Below, piece after piece: positions 1,752 through 45,188 of a stretch of 64,000 nt of DNA; within the stretch, counting starts at the first letter, position 1, and the number at the start of each line of letters is the position of its first letter. This DNA comes from an uncultured Pseudomonadales bacterium (GTDB lineage Bacteria > Pseudomonadota > Gammaproteobacteria > Pseudomonadales > Porticoccaceae), in contig CALSRZ010000002.1 in assembly GCA_943788895.1 (NCBI GenBank), positions 186,001 to 250,000 of the forward strand, given 5' to 3'. The notes under the pieces were generated by a model. It worked only from the letters and a program-made list of their open reading frames with translations, searched no databases and was not told the DNA's origin. The position numbers were made by a program, and so were the translations under genes.

Positions 1752-5291
<3,540 letters not shown>

Positions 5292-35052: not shown

Positions 35053-38000
35053 ATGTTAGATTATTTAAAGAAGAGCCTGGTAAATTCTTGCGCTGTTTTA
35101 CTGATGTTTTCTGCCGGTGTTGTATCTGCCCAGAATCAATCGGTCAGTGCGGTTGTTTCACAAACGGAAATTCTTCCCGGAGAGACAACCTCTTTATCTA
35201 TTACCTATAACGTCTCCGCCAGTTCTACCGATGGGTTGCTTACCGCCGGCCTGGGTTTGCGCCTTCACTATGACAGCACGGCAGTCTACTGTGACGAATC
35301 TATAATTTCTGATTTACTCGCTGATTCCAGTATCGGCATGCAGCTGATGAACGATACTGATGATAAAGACACTGATGCTTCGACTGATAAATATTTAAAT
35401 ACTGCCTGGGCCAATATTAATGGTGCATGGCCCTCTACTGCCTCATTGCCTGCGACTCTCTATACCCTAAACTGCACTGCTCTTAGTGGTTTTACCGGGA
35501 CCACTCTAAAGTTTTCAACTAGCTCTACGGCCAGTGGCTATGACTTTATAGCTAGCGATATTGTTCTTACTGAGAGATTGCTTCCTACGGATACAACAGC
35601 TCCAGTGATTACTTTGCTTGGTGATGCCCAGGTAACTGTTGATCTAGATGGAACCTATTCTGATTCAGGTGCAGTGGCTGATACTGGTGAAACTATAATC
35701 CTTAGCGGTTTTGTTGATACCAGTACTGTAGGTACTTACACGCTGACTTACTCTGCTACAGATGATGCAGGTAACCAAGCGGATGCTGTGACTCGTACAG
35801 TGATTGTTGTGAATACCGACACTGGCGGCGGCACTGATGGTGGCACTGATGGTGGCACTGATGGTGGCACTGATGGTGGCACTGATCTAACGCTGGATAC
35901 TGATGGTGACGGTATCCCCGATGTTCTGGAAAACGAAACCGGCCGTAATCCATTGATGACTGATTATATGGTTGCTGCGGGTGATAAGTTCAGCTGTGCG
36001 CTGGATGGCTCTGGTGTTTCATGCTGGGGTGATTCCTCTAATAACAAACTTTCTGTGCCAGCTCTTAGTAACCCAACCTATGTAGCTGTTGGCTTTGATC
36101 ATGCCTGTGCGATCGATGACACTGGTGCGGTCTGCTGGGGTAATGGGCAGTATCAGAAGACAACGCCGGCAGTATTATCAAATCCAACCAAACTGGCCCT
36201 GGGCCGTTTAAACAGCTGCGCACTTGATGACACTGGTGTGGTTTGTTGGGGAATTAATACCAGTGGCCGTTCAACGCCACCGTTCCTAAGCAACCCGACC
36301 GACTTGAGTGTGGGCAGTGACCATGCCTGTGCAATTGATGATAGCGGCCTGGTATGTTGGGGCAAACTCTCCTTTAAGCGCGGTCAGTTACCCATTGATT
36401 TGGTGAGCCCATCTCAGGTCTCTGCCGGTTGGTACCACAGCTGTGTGCTGGATGATAATGGCGTGAGCTGCTGGGGCAGTAAAGCCAAGACCGGCACCAA
36501 TGCGCCGCCAGCTCTAAGCAACCCAACAGTTGTTGCAACTGGTACTACATTTAGCTGCGCTATCGATGACACAGGTGTTGTCTGCTGGGGTAATAATGGT
36601 CAGAAGCAGTTGACTCGCGTCCCTGATCTATCCAACCCAACTCAGATAAGTCTGGGTACGGATCACGCCTGTGCGGTTGATGCCACTGGTGTTGTCTGCT
36701 GGGGTAGTACAGGTCGCGGTAAGTCATCGCCTCCTGTGGATATGTCAATAGTTACAGATAACGACAGCGATGGCATTGAGGACTGGGAAGAAGATATTCT
36801 CGGCACCAATAAGTATCTCGCTGACACCGATGGTGATGGCGTAGAAGACAGTATTGATGAAATGCCACTTGATGGTACTGAGTCGCTGGATAGCGATCGT
36901 GATGGCACCGGTAACAATGCCGATGCGGACGATGATAATGACGGTATTCCCGATGCCCTTGAGATCGAGACAGGCCGTGACCCGCTGGTAGTTGATTACG
37001 CAACTGGTGTAGGCGCCAAGTTTAGCTGTGGTATGGATGAAAGCGGTGTTCACTGTTGGGGTGATAGTGCAGATGGTAAGACCTCTGTCCCTGTTCTTAG
37101 CAACCCGACACAGCTTGCAGTTGGCTTCGAGCACGCCTGTGCCATTGATGACACTGGTGTGGTTTGTTGGGGTAAAGATAATGCTGGTAATACAGTAGCG
37201 CCGGCATTGAGTAACCCGGTTGTGGTCTCTGCTGGTCATTATCATAGCTGTGCCATTGATGACACAGGGATTGTTTGTTGGGGTGATACCAGCCATAAGC
37301 TGATGACGCGTATGCCTGAGTTTAGCTACCCAACTGAGGTTAGTGTTGGTGACGAACATGCCTGTGCAATTGATTCCAGTGGTGTGGTTTGTTGGGGTAA
37401 GAAATCCAATAAGCGCGGCCAGGTTCCAAGCGGCTTGGTTAACCCACGACATCTCTCTGCTGGCTTCCTGCACAGCTGTGTTATCGATGACAATGGCGTG
37501 AGCTGTTGGGGTAGCAGAGCCTCTACAGGAACAATTACTCCGCCGACGTTGAGCAATCCAACCTCTGTTGTAGCAGGTAAGACCTTTAGCTGTGCGATTG
37601 ATGACAACGGAGTGACCTGTTGGGGTGCCAATGGGCGCAAGCAAAAGATAGTCCCAACCCTGTACAGCCCGGTTCAGTTGGATCTCGGTAACGACCATGC
37701 CTGTGCGGTCGATGCCACTGGCGTGGTTTGTTGGGGTGGCAACTCCTTAGGTAAGCGCGATGTGCCGACAAACCTCGAGTTTATTTTGGATAATGACAAT
37801 GATGGTGTTGAGGATAAGGATGACCCGGCACCTCTCAACCCTGATGAATACCTGGATACAGATTCCGATGGCTTAGCAAACAATGTTGATCCAGATGATG
37901 ATGGTGATGGCGTCGCAGATATATCCGACGCCTTTCCCCTCGACAGTGCTGAATATCTTGACAGTGACTCGGATGGCATTGGTAACGTAGCCGATCTTGA

Positions 38001-41000
38001 TGATGATAATGACGGTGTTGAAGATTTACTAGATGCATTCCCATTTGATTCTACAGAGACAGTAGACTCAAATGGCGATGGATTTGGTGACAATGCATAC
38101 CCGCCTAACCCTACCAACCCCAATGCAACTTCTTTTACTCTGTCTGCCCCCGGTGCCTCTTCTGTGTCTATGCAGGCGAGTGTCTACAACTGGGAAATTG
38201 GCCGTGCCGATAGTTTTGCTACCGATAACGGTGATGGCACCTGGACTTTGATTGTTGATCCCTCGTGGACATCACAGGTCGATTACAAATGGCGAGTTGA
38301 TGATATTCAGGAGGACTTTTCAAGTGATTACCGAGCTGGGGAATGTTCTTCGGTGTATTTTGCAGGCTATGCAGATACCTGGTTTAACCGTATCTGGAAT
38401 CCCGATAGGGGGGTTGTAACTGATGATATTGCCGGCACCTGTATTGCCGATGATATAACAGGCGGCGGAACAGGTTCCTCGCAGCTCACTATGACCGTCC
38501 GCGCGGATAGCGCCAGTTCTGTACGAATAACGGGTCCATTGTGGGGCTGGGATGTCGCAGCTGGTCCAGTGGCTACTAACAACAATGACGGCACATGGTC
38601 TGTGATATTGGATCCTATGCCGGCTGAAGATATGGAATACCTCTGGGTGATTGATGGTATTCAAGAGAATCTTATCTCCAACGCTGCCAATGCAGAATGT
38701 TCAAACGAAATAAATAGCGGTGCAATGGTCACCGACTATTTCAGCTTTACAAACCGACAATGGATTGTTGGTTCCGGGGAAATTTCAGGGACTGTTGCTA
38801 ATGCCTGCTCGGATTCTGTCATCGTAGATCCGCAACCTCAGCCCACTGTTCTAGCCAATGTGTTATCCAATGGTATTGTCGACAATGGCTGGGATGTTGG
38901 TCTGGCGGCCTTTGATTCCGGTCAGGATTATGCCAGTTGTTACAATGACAATGGCGCAGGCTGCCCCAATGTTTCCTGGTCTCTAGTCAGCGATTCGGAG
39001 CGCGGCGATGTGCTGCAAGTCAGTCATGCAGATACCGGCATCTATGTGGGTATGTATTTCGCTTCCAGTGCTGGACGTGATTTTAGCGCCGCTGCCAATG
39101 GCAATCTTGTTTTTGATATTAAGTCTGTTGCCGGTGATAGCAACTTCGTGGTCAAAGTCGACTGTGATATCCCTGTGCCTCCAACAATATTGATCTGGGT
39201 AGTCAGGGCAGCGCCGGTTGGCAGACCGTTAGTATTCCGGTCTCTACATTGACCAGTAACGGACTTGATTTAACCAGTGTAAGCACGGGTCTGGTTATCT
39301 GGCCCGTAGCGGCGGCTAATACAGTTTATCAACTGGATAATATCCGCTGGGAGGTGCAGGAGGGGGCATCTGAGCCGCAAGTAGATTACACGCCAACTTC
39401 ATACAGCGGCTATTCTCTGGCCTGGAGTGATGAGTTTAATGGCAGTGCTGTTAATAAGTCTGACTGGACCTTTGAAACAGGTCGAGGGAGTAATGGTTGG
39501 GGTAATCAAGAGTCCCAGTTCTACCGCGAAGAAAATACCACGGTTGCCAATGGACTGTTAACAATTGAAGCCAAAGAAGAGAACTTTAATGGTGCCGAAT
39601 ACACCTCCTCGCGATTGATAACCAGAGGTAAGCAGTCGTTTAAATATGGTCGTATAGACGTTCGTGCCAAGCTACCACAAGGGCAGGGGCTGTGGCCGGC
39701 TATCTGGATGTTGGGTGAGCGCTTTGACTCTGTAGGTTGGCCCGCATCTGGCGAGATAGATATTATGGAAATGATTGGTGGTGATGGTCGTGAGGATACC
39801 ATTCACGGCACTATTCACTACGCTGACAATAACGGCTCCCATCAATATGTGGGTGATTCAGTTGGCCTTGTTTCCTGTCAGGCAATTGGTTGTGCCAACA
39901 CTTTTGCCGATGCTTTCCATACCTTTAGTATTGAGTGGGATAGCCAGTCTATTAAGTGGCTGGTGGATGGCGTTGAGTTTGCGTCCCAGCAGATAACCTC
40001 GTCAGATAGGACAGAGTTCCACGAAGAGTTCTTTTTTATAATGAATGTAGCCGTCGGAGGTCAGTGGCCCGGTTATCCCGATAACAGCACCAGCTTCCCG
40101 CAGCAGATGCAGGTGGACTATGTGCGTGTCTACCAGCCAACGCTTAGCCAATTCTCGTTCCTGCAGTCTGATAATCCCGGTCTAAGTTCTGATATTAATC
40201 TCAGTTTGGAGAATGGGGTCTTATCGGGAAGGGCAGCGATTGGCGATAGCGTCGACAATCTGATTGCCAGTTTTCAGCAAGCTGGTGAATCTATCTCTAT
40301 CGATGGTATAGATCAGTTTGATGGTGTTACAAGCAACGATTTTAGCAATCCTCTCAATTATACGATTGTAGGTAATGACGGTCTTGAGACTACTATTGCA
40401 GTTGATCTGGCTGAATTCACCGGCTTGCCAATTGTAAATATTAATACTCTGGGTGGTGTTGGCATTGATTCCAAAGATGACTATGTACTCGGCACAGTTT
40501 CTGTCGATGGTGGTCGTGGTTTCACTGATTTTCCTGAGCTGGCTATTGAAATCAGGGGCAGGGGTAATTCAACTTGGGGACACCCGAAAAAACCCTACCA
40601 GATGAAGTTTGAAGGCAAGGAAGAATTCCTTGATATGCCCAAGGATAAGAAATGGATTTTCCTTGCTGAGTACTCTGATAAAACCTTATTGAGAAATCGT
40701 ATTGCGTTTGAGATGGGCTATATCAGCGATCTCGACTGGACACCTGAGAGCACTTTTGCCGAAGTGTTTATCAATAACCAATATAATGGCACCTATAATA
40801 TTGTTCAAAAGGTTGAGGAGACCAATAGGCGTGTAGCCCTTGGGGATACAGGCTATCTATTGGAAATTGACCAGATATTTAGACTTGACCCGGATGATGT
40901 CTATTTTGAAACCGGGACTTTCTTACTCAATATCAAAGAGCCCAGTCTGGTCGCTAGATGATGCCTCAATTCGTTTATATCCGCGACCTTATCAACAACT

Positions 41001-41549
41001 TTGAAACATGCTTTGTTCGGCAGTAACTTTATGGATCCAACCATAGGTTATGCCTCGTTTATTGATTTGCCGAGTTTTATTGACTGGTACCTGATCAGTG
41101 AAATCACCAAGAATGTCGATTCCGTTTCGTTCTCCAGTATCTATCTAAATGTCATGCCCAATGAAAAGATTAAGATGGGGCCGCTGTGGGATTTCGATCT
41201 GTCTTTCGGCAATGTTGACTATGCCGATAGTCGTTATGCAGAGGGTTTTTGGATTAAGAATAACCCCTGGTATAGCAGGTTATTTCAGGATCCGGCTTTT
41301 GTTGCGCTGGTGCAGGATCGCTTTGCGTACTTTAGAGATAACCAGGCCACAATGCTGGAAAAAATTGATACCTATGCGACTCAATTAAAATGGGCGCAGC
41401 AGGAGAACAATGATAAGTGGCAGACCATTGGTAGCTATGTGTGGCCTAATCCGGTTGTTTACGATACCTATCAGGAAGAGGTTGATCATATGAAGGATTG
41501 GTATGTTCAGCGTATGAATTGGTTGGATGGGGCACTGGGTGATCTTTAG
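35053..41549 (+). CDS. Giant secreted modular GH16 laminarinase with RCC1 propellers and CotH domain (three or more frame breaks)
   Basis: One exoprotein of about 2165 codons, now read in pieces 35053-39252, 39249-40961 and 41001-41549. Order: signal peptide (to about 35131); cohesin-like beta-sandwich (35140-35590); DUF5011-like Ig domain (DTTAPVITLLGD); GGTD linker; two RCC1 propellers (35990-36740 and 37015-37770) separated and followed by calcium-binding TSP3 repeats; two starch-binding-like beta domains (38130-38800); an ExoP-type carbohydrate-binding domain (38850-39345) crossing the first break near 39175; GH16 (39400-40135) with catalytic GEIDIME (39750-39770; nucleophile and acid/base Glu, Asp between); and a CotH kinase-like domain (IRGRGNSTWGHPKKPYQMKF, about 40550; GPLWDFDLSFGN, about 41178), broken near 40955 and 41005. 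GH16 of this type cuts beta-1,3-glucan. The joined frame is strongly supported; what the propellers and CotH do is unknown. Confidence 0.87.
35827..35886 (+). repeat. Five 12-base tandem repeats encoding a GGTD linker
   Basis: GGYGGCACTGAT repeated five times in frame (first copy GGC, others GGT), encoding (Gly-Gly-Thr-Asp)5 between the DUF5011-like domain and the first TSP3 stretch. Likely to vary in copy number by slippage. Confidence 0.95.
35990..37770 (+). repeat. Two tandem sets of seven RCC1-like repeats in the laminarinase
   Basis: Each repeat is about 34 residues and reads like CAIDDTGVVCWG...LSNPT. I count seven in 35990-36740 and seven in 37015-37770, with a TSP3/linker segment between. 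Corresponding blades of the two sets are more alike than neighbours (for example blade 4 with KRGQ, blade 5 with HSCV.DDNGVSCWGS, blade 7 with HACAVDATGVVCWG), which shows that a whole propeller was duplicated. Confidence 0.85.
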
Positions 41550-41617
41550 TGACGGGTAGCTTTAGCAAGCTGTAGCCCAATCAGGTTTGTTAATGCTCTC
41601 TCGAATAAATAAAAGCT

Positions 41618-41649
41618 GTCATCCTGAGTGAAGTGGAAGGATCTCGAAG
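41618..41649. repeat. Short dispersed-type repeat (GTCATCCTGAG... motif)
   Basis: GTCATCCTGAGTGAAGTGGA and the following ATCTCGAAG resemble a short motif that recurs in intergenic DNA of many unrelated bacteria (variants of CATCCTGAGCGAAGCGAAGG from memory). Only one copy is present here. Between 41550 and 41617 I see nothing else. Confidence 0.5.
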
Positions 41650-41720
41650 TTGATTGTAGCTGGCGGGGCTTTTATGGGTGCCTTTGATGATTGTTGGTGG
41701 CGTGTAGAAGGGATTGATGT

Positions 41721-42250
41721 TTATTAGCCTTAAGGCTAATAACCAGTCCTTCGGACCGCCTTTGGCGTCCAAAATGCGTTCGCATTTAGTGATTGTTAAG
41801 GCCCTAAAGGGACTTAAGAACCCCTGCGGGGCAGCGTCGCTATGCTCCTCGTCCAAAATGCGTTCGCATTTAGTGATGGTTATTAGCCTTAAGGCCAATA
41901 AGCAGTCCTGCGGACCGCCTTTGGCGTCCAAAATGCGTTCGCATTTAGTGATTGTTAAGGCCCTAAAGGGACTTAACAACCCCTGCGGGGTAGCGTCGCT
42001 ATGCTCCTCGTCCAAAATGCGTTCGCATTTAGTCGAACCCGCTAGGCTTCTCACCCTATCCCACCGGATACAAAAAAGGGGCTTTTATTGGTGCTTTTAA
42101 TGATTGCCGGTGGGATCGTGTAGTAGGGATTGATGGTTATTAGCCTGAAGGCTAATAACCAGTCCTTCGGACCGCCTTTGGCGTCCAAAACACGATGTGT
42201 TTTGTCGAACCCGCTAGGGTTCTCACCCTATCCCACCGGATACAAAAAAG
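41721..42250. repeat. Island of stacked hairpin repeats (three copies of one module)
   Basis: Module copies begin at 41721, 41880 and 42137 (the last partial). Each is a string of small palindromes: TTAGCCTTAAGGCTAA, GTCCTTCGGAC, CGCCTTTGGCG, AAATGCGTTCGCATTT, CCCTAAAGGG, CCCCTGCGGGG, then AAATGCGTTCGCATTT again. In copy 3 the fourth stem is replaced by AAAACACGATGTGTTTT, a different sequence that still pairs. The segments 41669-41720 and 42082-42136 that precede copies 1 and 3 are also duplicates of each other. Open frames across the island only reflect the repeat and are not genes. Confidence 0.88.
42042..42082 (+). repeat. Mirror copy of the tRNA-Ser 3' end (copy A)
   Basis: CTAGGCTTCTCACCCTATCC followed by CACCGGATACAAAAAAGG resembles, in opposite orientation, the T-arm, acceptor and downstream flank of the tRNA-Ser at 42279-42369. 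ATCCCACCGG (42058-42067) also pairs with CCGGTGGGAT at 42107-42116. Confidence 0.7.
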
Positions 42251-42307
42251 GCCCCTTAAAAAGGGGCCTTTCTTTGTATGGCGGTGGGATAGGGATTCGA
42301 ACCCTAG
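42214..42307. repeat. Imperfect inverted repeat joining the hairpin island to tRNA-Ser
   Basis: Left arm 42214-42257 (CTAGGGTTCTCACCCTATCC, then CACCGGATACAAAAAAGG) matches the reverse complement of right arm 42261-42307, which is the 3' part of tRNA-Ser plus its terminator. The symmetry centre is the terminator loop. The mirrored arm lacks the CCA-end sequence and differs in the T-loop. Confidence 0.8.
42243..42274 (-). terminator. Terminator of tRNA-Ser
   Basis: Hairpin GGCCCCTT / AAGGGGCC (42250-42268) followed on the minus strand by TTTTTTG. A and T runs on both sides would allow termination in either direction. Confidence 0.85.
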
Positions 42308-42369
42308 ATACGCTATTAACGTATGCCAGTTTTCAAGACTGGTGCATTCAACCGCTCTGCCATCCCACC
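42279..42369 (-). tRNA. tRNA-Ser (UGA)
   Basis: On the minus strand: acceptor GGTGGGA/TCCCACC, anticodon stem CCAGT/ACTGG around CTTGAAA (anticodon TGA), long variable arm (ATACG...CGTAT) typical of serine tRNAs, T-arm GGGTTCGAATCCC, discriminator G, encoded CCA. It lies 47 bases downstream of rne on the same strand and has its own promoter. Confidence 0.97.
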
Positions 42370-42381
42370 GTTGAAGGCGCG

Positions 42382-42409
42382 ATTATACAGCGCCTTTTTG
42401 CTAGAACAA
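42382..42409 (-). promoter_or_regulatory. Promoter of tRNA-Ser, with -10 box inside an inverted repeat
   Basis: Minus strand TTGTTC (42404-42409), 16-base spacer, TATAAT (42382-42387), then CGCGCC. AAGGCGC (42374-42380) and GCGCCTT (42390-42396) form an inverted repeat around the -10 box; on the plus strand it is followed by T's and could also act as a terminator. Confidence 0.75.
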
Positions 42410-42416
42410 GTACCAA

Positions 42417-45188
42417 TTACTCTTTGGACGTATTTTCGCTACTTTCTTTTGCCGATCCACTATCAACTGATGGGCTGGCTTCAGATTTTTCTGCATTGCG
42501 CTTCTTTCTTGGGTCATTCGATGCGCGGGCAACTTTGGGCTTCTCGGCAGCTACTGGTGCCGGGGCACTGGTTTCTGCTGGCTTGGGCTTTTCAGTTTTA
42601 CGGCGCTCGGTGCTGACTTCAACGGCACTGACAGGCTTGGGCTTTTTACGCGGATCATTGCTGGCTCTTACCGCAGTTTCCTCTGAGGGCTTGGCGTCGC
42701 TTTTAACCGCCGCTGGCTTCTCTTTAGGGGCAGCCTTCTTTGCAGCTTCAACTTTATCTGTGGAAGCTTTTTCAGCGCTTTTGTTTTCTGTAGCTGTTGC
42801 GTCTTCCGCTGGCTTGGCTGCAGGCTTTCTGCGCGGGCGAGACTTGCGGGCAGGCTTATCTTCGCTTTTGGCTGTGTCAGCTGTTTCGCTTTTTGCCTCT
42901 GTTGCTGCAGCTTCACTCGCTGTGGTATCTGTTGCAGTTTCAACGGAATCAGCTTTTGGCTTCGGCTTGCGCGGAGCGCGTTTGCGCTTTGGCTTTTCTG
43001 CTGGTTTCTCAGCTGCATTGTCGACGGCAGGGCTCTCTACTGGCGCTGCTGTGGCTTCAGTTGTCGCCTCAGCTGTTACTGCAGTTTGATCCAATACTTC
43101 AGCTGGAACATCCTGGCGCTGACGACGACGGCGGGGTCCGCGACGTTTGTCATTAGGGCGTTTCTTTAACTGATTAGCATCTGCTTCCGGGCGCTGGTTT
43201 GGCGCTTGGCTAGTTTCTTTGGCTTGAGTCGCGCTTTCGTTAGCAGCGGGTTTTTGCTGTTGTTCATTGCGACCTTTATTTGAACGATTGTCAGAGGACT
43301 TATTGTTTTTCTGACGGTTATTGGTGCGTTCGCCATCGCGCTGATTCTCATTGCGGTTGCGATTGTTTGGACGACGGTTGCCCTGGCGATTACGGCTGTC
43401 CTGACCACCGCGTCGGCGATTAGAGTTTCCTGAGCCTGTTCTTTTCTGTCCTTGGCGGCCAGTTTTTGTTTCAGTCTCTTTATCACCAAACAAGCTGTTC
43501 CATAGTCGCTTTAACAGTCCTGGTTTTTTAGGCGTTTTGGCGGCTGGGGCAGCAGCTTTTGGCTCAACTTTCGGGGCCGGTGTATTGGGAACCAGAGTTT
43601 TTACTGCAGGCTGTGAGATCGGCAGTGGGGCACTGGCGCTTTCAAGTTCCTGTTCTGGGTCGCTGTGGCTTAGATCGTGAGCTAACTTGTAGCTGAAATC
43701 GGTGCTCTCATCTTCGTCCTGAGTGCGCAGTCTAACCACTTCGAAATGCGGGGTTTCCATCTGGGTATTGGGAAGAACCACAACATTGATCTTGTTGCGT
43801 CCTTCAATTTCGGAAATCTCCGAGCGCTTTTCATTGAGCAGGAAGGTTGCCACAGAGACTGGCACGATAGCGCGAATCTCTTTACTGAACTCTTTCTGAG
43901 CCTCTTCTTCGATCAGGCGCAGGATTGACAGTGCCAGTGAGCGAGTACCGCGGATAGTGCCCTGGCCTTTACAGCGTGGGCAGACTTTCGACATGGTCTC
44001 TTCGAGTGAGGGGCGCAGGCGCTGTCGAGACATCTCGAGCAGGCCAAATCTTGAGATACGGCCAACCTGAACGCGGGCACGGTCAATTTTTAGTGCATCG
44101 CGGGTTTTGTTTTCAACTTCTTTCTGGTGGCGGCTGTTGAGCATATCGATAAAGTCGATAACGATCAGTCCACCGACATCGCGAAGGCGCAGCTGACGAG
44201 CAATCTCTTCAGCAGCTTCCTTGTTGGTGTTAAAGGCTGTCTCTTCAATATCACCGCCCTTGGTTGCGCGGGCTGAGTTGATATCCACAGAGACCATAGC
44301 TTCTGTCACATCGATAACAATCGAACCGCCGGAGGGCAGGCTGACTTCACGACAGAATGCGGTCTCAATCTGGTTTTCAATCTGGTAGCGATTGAACAGC
44401 GGGATTTGATCTTTGTAGAGCTTTACCTTGTTGCTAAAGTCGGGCATGACAGTGCCGATAAAGGCGGCTGCCAGATTGTAGGCATCTTCGCTGTCGACAA
44501 TCACTTCACCGACATCCTGGCGCAGGTAGTCGCGAATAGCTCTTACGATGACATTGCTTTCCTGGAACAGGAAGTGGGGTGCCTTGGCATCAACCGCTTC
44601 ATCATTAATGGTGTTCCATAGCTGTAAAAGATAGTCGAGATCCCATTGCAGCTCTTCGGTGGCGCGGCCAATACCAGCGGTGCGGACGATAGCGCCCATA
44701 CCTTCGGGAATATCCAGTCCGCGCATAGCTTCGCGCAACTCGGCGCGCTCATCGCCTTCGATGCGGCGTGAGATGCCACCGGCACGTGGGTTGTTAGGCA
44801 TCAGTACCAGATAGCGACCAGCGAGACTGATAAAGGTTGTCAGGGCAGCGCCTTTTGAACCGCGCTCTTCTTTTTCTACCTGAACAAGTACTTCCTGGCC
44901 TTCTTTGATCGCATCCTGAATTCTGGCTCGACCACCATCTGAGGATTTTTTCTTGAAGTATTCGCGAGAAATTTCTTTAAGGGGGAGGAAGCCGTGGCGG
45001 TCTGCGCCGTAGTCGACAAATGCCGCTTCTAAACTTGGCTCTACTCTAGTAATTTTGCCTTTGTAAATATTGGCTTTCTTTTGTTCTCTTGTACGGTTTT
45101 CAATATCCAGGTCATAGAGTTTCTGACCATCAACCATCGCTACGCGCACTTCTTCTGGGTGCGACGCGTTTATTAACATACGTTTCAT
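42417..45188 (-). CDS. rne: Ribonuclease E
   Basis: Single-strand endoribonuclease and scaffold of the RNA degradosome. [21 protein letters not shown] is the canonical start; the S1 RNA-binding domain ([20 protein letters not shown]) is at about 41-60 onward; the catalytic Asp pair is in [12 protein letters not shown] and VIDFIDMLN; the zinc-link is CPRCKGQG (about residue 404). The C-terminal 400 residues are low-complexity: Arg-rich RNA-binding stretches ([20 protein letters not shown]) then Lys/Pro/Ala/Glu-rich repeats, expected for the disordered scaffold. 923 residues. Antisense open frames over this GC-biased tail are shadows. The start has AAGGTG upstream and a long leader. Confidence 0.96.

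Follow-up and report, generated by a model that had tools for sequence, protein, structure and literature searches.

The stretch of DNA considered here, called the window throughout, comprises 64,000 nucleotides from an uncultured Pseudomonadales bacterium of the family Porticoccaceae and contains an array of stacked hairpins that sits between laminarinase-like open reading frames (ORFs) and an intact tRNA-Ser(UGA) gene (42279-42369, minus strand), found by ARAGORN and matched by Rfam RF00005 at 59.2 bits. The array is attached to this tRNA gene, and its natural reading is on the tRNA strand. The original prediction, made from the letters of the sequence, had located a hairpin island in this interval, and the island is present there and folds far better than shuffled sequence, with z-scores of -5.4 for the proximal unit as RNA and of -8.0 and -6.3 for the distal unit as DNA and RNA, respectively. 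On the far side of the array, the laminarinase-like gene (39249-41549) is apparently split into two ORFs (39249-40961 and 41001-41549), the first of which overlaps the end of another ORF (35053-39252); frameshifts or assembly errors are possible causes of the split.

Followed along the tRNA strand, the tRNA gene gives way to a bidirectional palindrome resembling an intrinsic terminator, with T runs on both sides (42244-42274, from the inverted repeat and the sequence), then to an inverted copy of the tRNA 3' end (42226-42238, minus strand, the exact complement of 42282-42294), and then to two tandem units. Each unit is a partial, decayed copy of tRNA-Ser(UGA), consisting of acceptor and T-arm, whose T-loop (TTCGA^ATCCC, with the caret at the split) holds clusters of four hairpins (HP1 to HP4). 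A unit opens with an arm whose end, GGGTTCGA, is the left half of T-arm and T-loop, and finishes with ATCCC and a decayed acceptor strand, the right half. Drift is evident in both parts, in that the left arm reads GCGGGTTCGA, compared with TAGGGTTCGA in the tRNA, and the acceptor 3' strand is broken.

Of the five clusters in the window, all on the minus strand, the proximal unit contains one and the distal unit four. The proximal 5' arm (42205-42239), recognized from its sequence and flanks, leads into the 74-bp cluster A3 (42131-42204), which is matched by the structure model R1 described below at 34.9 bits and is covered by a sub-threshold match to AaHKsRNA22 (42120-42216). Its hairpins, read from sequence and fold, are HP1 (42186-42204, stem AAAACAC/GTGTTTT), HP2 (42174-42182), HP3 (42162-42172), and HP4 (42134-42161, also an inverted repeat), and the unit closes with ATCCC and a diverged acceptor 3' strand, ATCCCTACTACACGATCCCACCGG (42107-42130). 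The distal unit begins with a second arm ending in GGGTTCGA (42033-42067) and ends with ATCCC and its own decayed acceptor 3' strand (41690-41714). Between these lie clusters B2 (41949-42032, 84 bp), A2 (41874-41948, 75 bp), B1 (41790-41873, 84 bp), and A1 (41715-41789, 75 bp; R1 match of 23.4 bits, L001), which together fill 41715-42032, exactly two repeats of 159 bp, each read as 84 + 75 bp; the direct repeat defines the clusters, and the inner boundaries of B2, A2, and B1 come from the sequence.

Three copies of a palindromic module had been predicted. Such copies are indeed found: two of 159 bp, 96% identical to each other, lie at 41715-41873 and 41874-42032, and there is a third, incomplete one, although a finer reading resolves each 159-bp copy into two different four-hairpin clusters and the third into one. 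The predicted replacement of the stem AAATGCG/CGCATTT by AAAACAC/GTGTTTT in copy 3 is seen in the sequence. The further claim that most differences between copies fall in loops or leave a wobble pair holds only in part: at the 6 of 159 positions where copies 1 and 2 differ (placed by eye), one change lies in a loop (41751), one leaves a G.U pair on the minus strand (41737), and one falls at a junction (41832), but the remaining three (41818, and 41743 with 41720) leave two pairs unpaired. What had gone unnoticed was that the array is tied to tRNA loops, has flanks copied from a tRNA, and is related to RtT.

Hairpin clusters inside the loops of tRNA copies

Two structure models were used to search for homologs. 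R1 was built from four close sequences of two genomes other than the focal one and includes no E. coli sequence, and R2 is a hairpin-only model from which the tRNA flanks were left out. The models were restricted to four close sequences because class-wide MAFFT alignments misplaced the hairpins, and this basis narrows the range found. R1 matches 120 of 274 gammaproteobacterial genomes, in 100 of 222 genera, and in a sample of 398 genomes of the phylum R2 matches 77, of which 52 lie outside the class, mostly in one family (f217). Within the focal genus R2 finds 5 of 39 genomes and is thus poor at the focal subtype. The same four-hairpin layout occurs in many families, at Ser, Arg, Gln, Leu, Pro, Tyr, Ala, Glu, and tmRNA genes; it is also found away from tRNAs and in arrays of alternating orientation (L159, L166, and L169). 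A tRNA is present in 24 of the 30 best R1 loci, compared with none of 30 Y1-transposase control loci of about 2-3 kb drawn from 13 of the 16 carrier genomes searched, and a tRNA or tmRNA is present in 18 of 40 R2 loci (3 overlapping). Highly similar dispersed copies in three genomes (G391, G339, and G371) mostly share flanks beyond the cluster, and for this reason clean element ends cannot be taken from them.

The junctions between clusters and their surroundings were examined in 130 distinct R2 clusters (150 aligned of 152 matches, from 99 loci). The two bases to the left are GA in 94 and CA in 21. A same-strand tRNA shares the locus with 68 clusters, and 54 of these lie 0-400 nt downstream of its 3' end; 60 of the 130 are in loci without an ARAGORN tRNA, some of them cut by contig ends or next to tmRNA. 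When each cluster was removed with the best of 12 right ends and the 22 joined bases were compared to the neighboring gene, removal restored the same-strand tRNA or tmRNA at 18 bases or more in 45 of 74 cases, at 20 or more in 33, and exactly in 8, in counts that take tandem copies singly and ignore kinship. Other tRNAs of the pool, given equal freedom, reach 18 bases in 10 of 370 comparisons and 20 in none. The remaining 29 of the 74 clusters fit at fewer than 18 bases. Good fits are mostly in the T-loop (TTCGA^ATCC), and the junction is a split loop rather than a duplicated core. The anticodon loop is split (CTCGA^AA) in L106 and in three tandem copies in L128, and the D-loop in L050, in each case with the array upstream of the intact tRNA, while in L056 a full-length tRNA-Arg copy split in its T-loop precedes an intact tRNA-Arg. 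The tandem units of relatives carry clearer tRNA 3' sequence than the decayed units of the window. These comparisons place the hairpin block, in many genomes, within a loop of an incomplete tRNA copy that has an intact tRNA next to it.

The same association is seen within the focal genome, where R1 returns ten clusters at E <= 0.001, nine of them at a tRNA or tmRNA: eight lie 68-260 nt downstream of a same-strand tRNA (assigned by hand), and the ninth directly follows the tmRNA (L113). The tenth (C1:447269) has no nearby tRNA. A3 is the only one of the window's five clusters among these ten, and the match to this proximal cluster begins about 70 nt past tRNA-Ser. A DNA search finds copies beside tRNA-Ser(GCU), tRNA-Ser(GGA), and tRNA-Leu(CAA), and Rfam RF02902 adds one at tRNA-Leu(UAA) that is absent from the genome-wide R1 list. 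The focal tmRNA itself (L113 1171-1430, in G000:C5) escapes ARAGORN, and its score of 41.1 bits compares with Rfam's 47.

Across four genomes of the genus (the focal G000, G017, G018, and G022), 34 of 38 R1 matches are at a tRNA or tmRNA, of which 26 lie at most 700 nt downstream, 1 lies 968 nt downstream, 4 lie just upstream of an intact tRNA, and 3 are at tmRNA T-loops, as read from the sequence; the other four matches have no tRNA or tmRNA nearby. The focal tRNA-Ser(GGA) has a T-loop unit downstream and, upstream, a copy of its own 5' part whose D-loop is split (GGCTGA^A) by a 78-bp insert, the junction agreeing with the intact gene at 14 of 14 bases on the left and 9 of 12 on the right. 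Comparable D-loop units occur four in a row before tRNA-Ser(GGA) in G017, which also has one with two clusters before tRNA-Ser(GCU), and singly before tRNA-Ser(GGA) in G004. With D-loop copies upstream and T-loop units downstream, one tRNA can therefore carry both. An empty site is seen in G025 (L027), where tRNA-Ser(UGA) follows the gene that precedes it in the window and has a plain terminator, with no module on either side in the stretch read. The tRNA-Ser(GGA) of G004 (L029) was rejected as a second empty site, since it lacks a downstream unit but has the D-loop unit upstream. A DNA search with the window unit matches 19 of 56 genomes, the focal one included, some by short pieces only. At one locus of G018 (C4:594755-595353), a series of clusters upstream of an intact tRNA alternates with three weak tRNA matches (33.7-33.8 bits), an arrangement that resembles the anticodon-loop and D-loop arrays.

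Relation to RtT and AaHKsRNA22

A close known counterpart of these arrays is RtT, represented in E. coli by rttR, an annotated small RNA of 171 nt that ends at CCA. The three best R1 matches in E. coli K-12 are the three repeats at tyrV/rttR (E from 1.3e-9 to 1.3e-8), followed by three (E 0.004-0.035) that are these repeats read on the opposite strand; one structure model thus recognizes window clusters A3 and A1 as well as the three rttR units. With the cluster removed, two of the E. coli units agree with tRNA-Tyr at 27 of 27 bases and the third at 26 of 27. Both systems consist of tandem units downstream of a tRNA that end in a copy of the tRNA 3' end, diverged in the window, and both run from a 5' arm with UGAGAA and GGUUCGA through a hairpin stack to AUCC and the tRNA 3' end. 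The window array differs in its position at tRNA-Ser(UGA), its own hairpin sequences, its four clusters in one T-loop, and its decayed 3' ends; it also lies below detection by the Rfam model and is read here as a tRNA-loop insertion. The island is a divergent relative of RtT that has a common plan with it and would work in a similar way, because R1, built without E. coli, picks out the tyrV/rttR repeats.

The Rfam RtT model itself (RF00391, gathering score 45 bits) has no match in the window between 41200 and 42700 at E up to 5 and none in the focal genome under stricter filters, and the array is not filed as RF00391 proper because it falls below Rfam's own threshold. At some loci the model stops just short of its cut-off (42.6 bits against 45 in L156). 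It matches 50 of the 274 class genomes, 18 above the cut-off, and among 14 control genomes only E. coli. Of the 50 RtT-positive genomes, 45 are also R1-positive. Among the 20 best RtT matches, 14 are overlapped by an R2 match at E up to 0.1, including 6 at E <= 0.001, and 19 lie in loci that hold a tRNA. RtT is known as an RNA that the tyrT transcript releases. A published account (PMC4986893, citing Bosl and Kersten 1991) attributes RtT RNAs to tRNA transcripts and gives them a modulating role in the stringent response; PMC4986893 also describes release from other E. coli tRNA operons and places RtT RNAs upstream of tRNA genes in Actinobacillus. Among the search listings and abstract openings covered, in which subscription journals are poorly represented, no report presents RtT as a tRNA-loop insertion or describes a wide distribution.

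The second counterpart is AaHKsRNA22 (RF02902), which has the same layout of HP1, linker, HP2, HP3, GA, and HP4 and gives sub-threshold matches over three window clusters (34.2, 26.8, and 20.8 bits, the weakest at E 0.39, against a gathering score of 39.8). It differs in setting, in that 12 of 13 loci in G306, the one genome with over-threshold matches, have no tRNA. The copies in G306 (L043, L052, L055, L058, L060, and L062) are mostly dispersed, and several carry AAGTGCGGT, which we take to be the Haemophilus uptake sequence, beside HP1.

Covariation and wobble pairs in the stems

Conservation of the stems was followed within the genus in a MAFFT alignment of 27 clusters, comprising 26 of the 27 distinct BLASTN finds and the window cluster A2, added by hand; a 67-nt partial find was left out, and other partial finds were extended. 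Of 699 cells in this alignment, 94.7% are paired, 15 of the 26 pairs have changed on both sides, and 98 cells are double-changed. In 500 shuffles, the paired fraction, the double-change counts, and the covariation score were never attained; the number of further pair types was attained in 18 of the 500, and slid partners are at most 47.5% paired. Among 127 distinct R2-aligned clusters, 22 of 24 pairs change on both sides, in an alignment that itself leans to structure. The homologs are many and their stems change on both sides, contrary to the outcome that would have refuted the original suggestion of selection for structure, or of a copying mechanism working through hairpins; the suggestion is partly supported, and either half of it may hold.

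Wobble pairs bear on whether the stems are kept as RNA or as DNA. Within the genus they are scarce and show no strand bias (8 G.U and 6 A.C), compared with 42 G.U and 4 A.C when acceptor and T stems are counted in 113 tRNAs of the retrieved loci (Fisher p 0.007, on cells that are not independent). Because wobble is scarce and without strand bias, the genus clusters lean towards upkeep at the DNA level or constraint on both strands. The class-wide count, with 104 G.U and 18 A.C, does not differ from the tRNA count (p 0.44); once one HP3 pair with 67 G.U is omitted, a choice made after viewing the table, 37 and 18 remain (p 0.004), and only then does the class-wide wobble lean towards DNA-level upkeep as well.

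Possible origins of the arrays

We consider it likely that the island is an RtT-like array of part-copies of the adjacent tRNA, with clusters in the T-loop between TTCGA and ATCC, and that the clusters belong to an old palindromic family that enters the loops of spare tRNA copies scarlessly. As the sequence can be read, a cluster would enter the loop of a spare copy after GA^ or CA^ and leave no scar, the intact tRNA would be kept next to the array, and units and clusters would then multiply in tandem. The right end of the block (TCA before A) may re-create the site, which would explain head-to-tail stacking (as in L176, L161, and the 84 + 75 bp pairs of the window). If transcription of the tRNA reads through past the terminator, each unit could fold into a minihelix of acceptor and T-arm whose 3' end resembles that of a tRNA and which bears the hairpin stack where the T-loop would be; tRNA maturation could then excise the unit, as has been reported for rttR of E. 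coli.

Taken together, these observations suggest that hairpin blocks in tRNA loops are widespread and little-studied moving or copying DNA. A wider version of this reading, which we put forward tentatively and would not yet call probable, is that the cluster is a non-autonomous mobile DNA found across Pseudomonadota, which may enter the D-, anticodon-, and T-loops of tRNA and tmRNA copies scarlessly after GA or CA, re-create its target, and have its palindromes maintained as DNA, with RtT and AaHKsRNA22 as domesticated or drifted descendants. Should the reading hold, RtT would be one case of a family that reaches almost half of the gammaproteobacteria sampled (120 of 274), and an exact, testable rule would follow, namely that a hairpin block occupies the loop of a spare tRNA copy whose intact counterpart stands next to it. 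It would provide a way to study how tRNA-linked repeats originate and whether selection on RNA or copying through hairpins keeps palindromes perfect, and it might bear on small RNAs that arise from tRNA maturation.

The alternative that survives best dispenses with a moving element and invokes plain tandem duplication, by slippage or unequal recombination, of a tRNA part together with its palindromes, with stems perfected by quasi-palindrome repair. The exact tandem units, the near identity of the two 159-bp copies, and, in the genus set, the few wobble intermediates without strand bias are all what it predicts. The same layout nevertheless recurs at many tRNA and tmRNA genes and in many families, in three different tRNA loops and away from tRNAs, so that duplication alone leaves the arrival of the clusters unexplained, and we regard it as a rather unlikely account of the whole.

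Alternatively, the clusters could be a conserved regulatory RNA, for example a sponge for CsrA/RsmA, with tRNA genes merely providing promoter and processing; GGA in hairpin loops is a binding motif of CsrA/RsmA-like proteins. Covarying stems and the class-wide preponderance of G.U over A.C would fit such an RNA, and GGA is found in the HP1 loop of 117, the HP4 loop of 115, and both loops of 111 of the 127 distinct R2-aligned clusters, in 6 (HP1) and 5 (HP4) of 7 clusters from RtT-model loci, and in the loops of the focal tmRNA and tRNA-Leu(CAA) copies. R2, however, favors GGA loops in retrieval, its source sequences carrying them, and the 27 genus clusters have no GGA loops, the five GGA occurrences caught there being a GGACG linker; for these two reasons the sponge stays a rival only. 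The rttR repeats read from E. coli, too, lack GGA loops. That rttR is annotated as a small RNA, and that RtT RNAs are reported to lie upstream of Actinobacillus tRNA genes (PMC4986893), agrees with a regulatory role, but the scarce genus G.U pairs without strand bias do not, and dispersed copies and arrays of alternating orientation are unlike a gene. On balance we think this explanation unlikely.

Movement of a REP/BIME-like repeat by a REP-associated tyrosine transposase (RAYT), or by some other HUH enzyme that uses single-stranded hairpins as its substrate, is quite improbable. The clusters share with REP/BIME elements their short palindromes and, in some genomes, their dispersed or alternating arrays, and hairpins, scarless junctions, and the alternating orientation of L159, L166, and L169 would suit such an enzyme, as would contig L120, which has a RAYT gene (154.8 bits) with six clusters about 2-4 kb away. 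RAYT genes are also somewhat more frequent in carriers than in other genomes (95 of 120 against 94 of 154, p 0.0015, uncorrected for genome size and kinship). The clusters differ from REP/BIME and RAYT systems in that there is mostly no linked RAYT, each cluster has four hairpins, and the tie to tRNA loops is strong. RAYT has no match in 25 of the 120 carriers, including the focal genome (neither PF01797 nor NF047646 matches in G000), and a cluster accompanies only 2 of 30 Y1-transposase loci; with this absence and this low count, RAYT is unsupported as the mover. The focal genome, 93% complete, has no Y1 transposase match.

Integrative elements that target tRNA genes resemble the arrays in their use of tRNA genes and in the intact tRNA that stays beside the insert; they differ in that the insert here is about 75-85 bp, with no gene, no integrase seen, and a split loop in place of a duplicated core. 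Direct repeats of tRNA 3' ends are expectable for att sites, and tRNA 3' ends are repeated here in direct orientation, while in a single case (L119, G117:C86:43500-48540) an ORF for a XerC-like tyrosine recombinase (2381-3394) lies between clusters that overlap both ends, the end one inverted; even so, scars of phages or integrative elements are a very improbable source, given the split loop at the junction without a duplicated core and the anticodon-loop and D-loop arrays upstream of intact tRNAs. An origin from phages or plasmids was rejected, as two cluster queries have no match in phages or plasmids and one exact cluster pattern has none in viral contigs.

Several minor features of the window adjoin the array that we read as an RtT-like relative. 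No integrase is seen in it, and ORFs of at least 80 aa over it are repeat or tRNA sequence read through. Open frames at 41590-42054 (minus), 41714-42100 (plus), and 42130-43089 (plus) cross the array or the tRNA on both strands and are probably spurious; ORFs of this sort find their way into databases as hypothetical proteins. Sub-threshold Rfam matches to miRNA, sX4, and other families over the tRNA and the terminator palindrome were taken as chance or as tRNA overlap. Another dispersed repeat, GTCATCCTGAGTGAAGTGGAAGGATCTC-like, lies at 41617-41650 and also adjoins arrays in L005, L012, L013, and L032.
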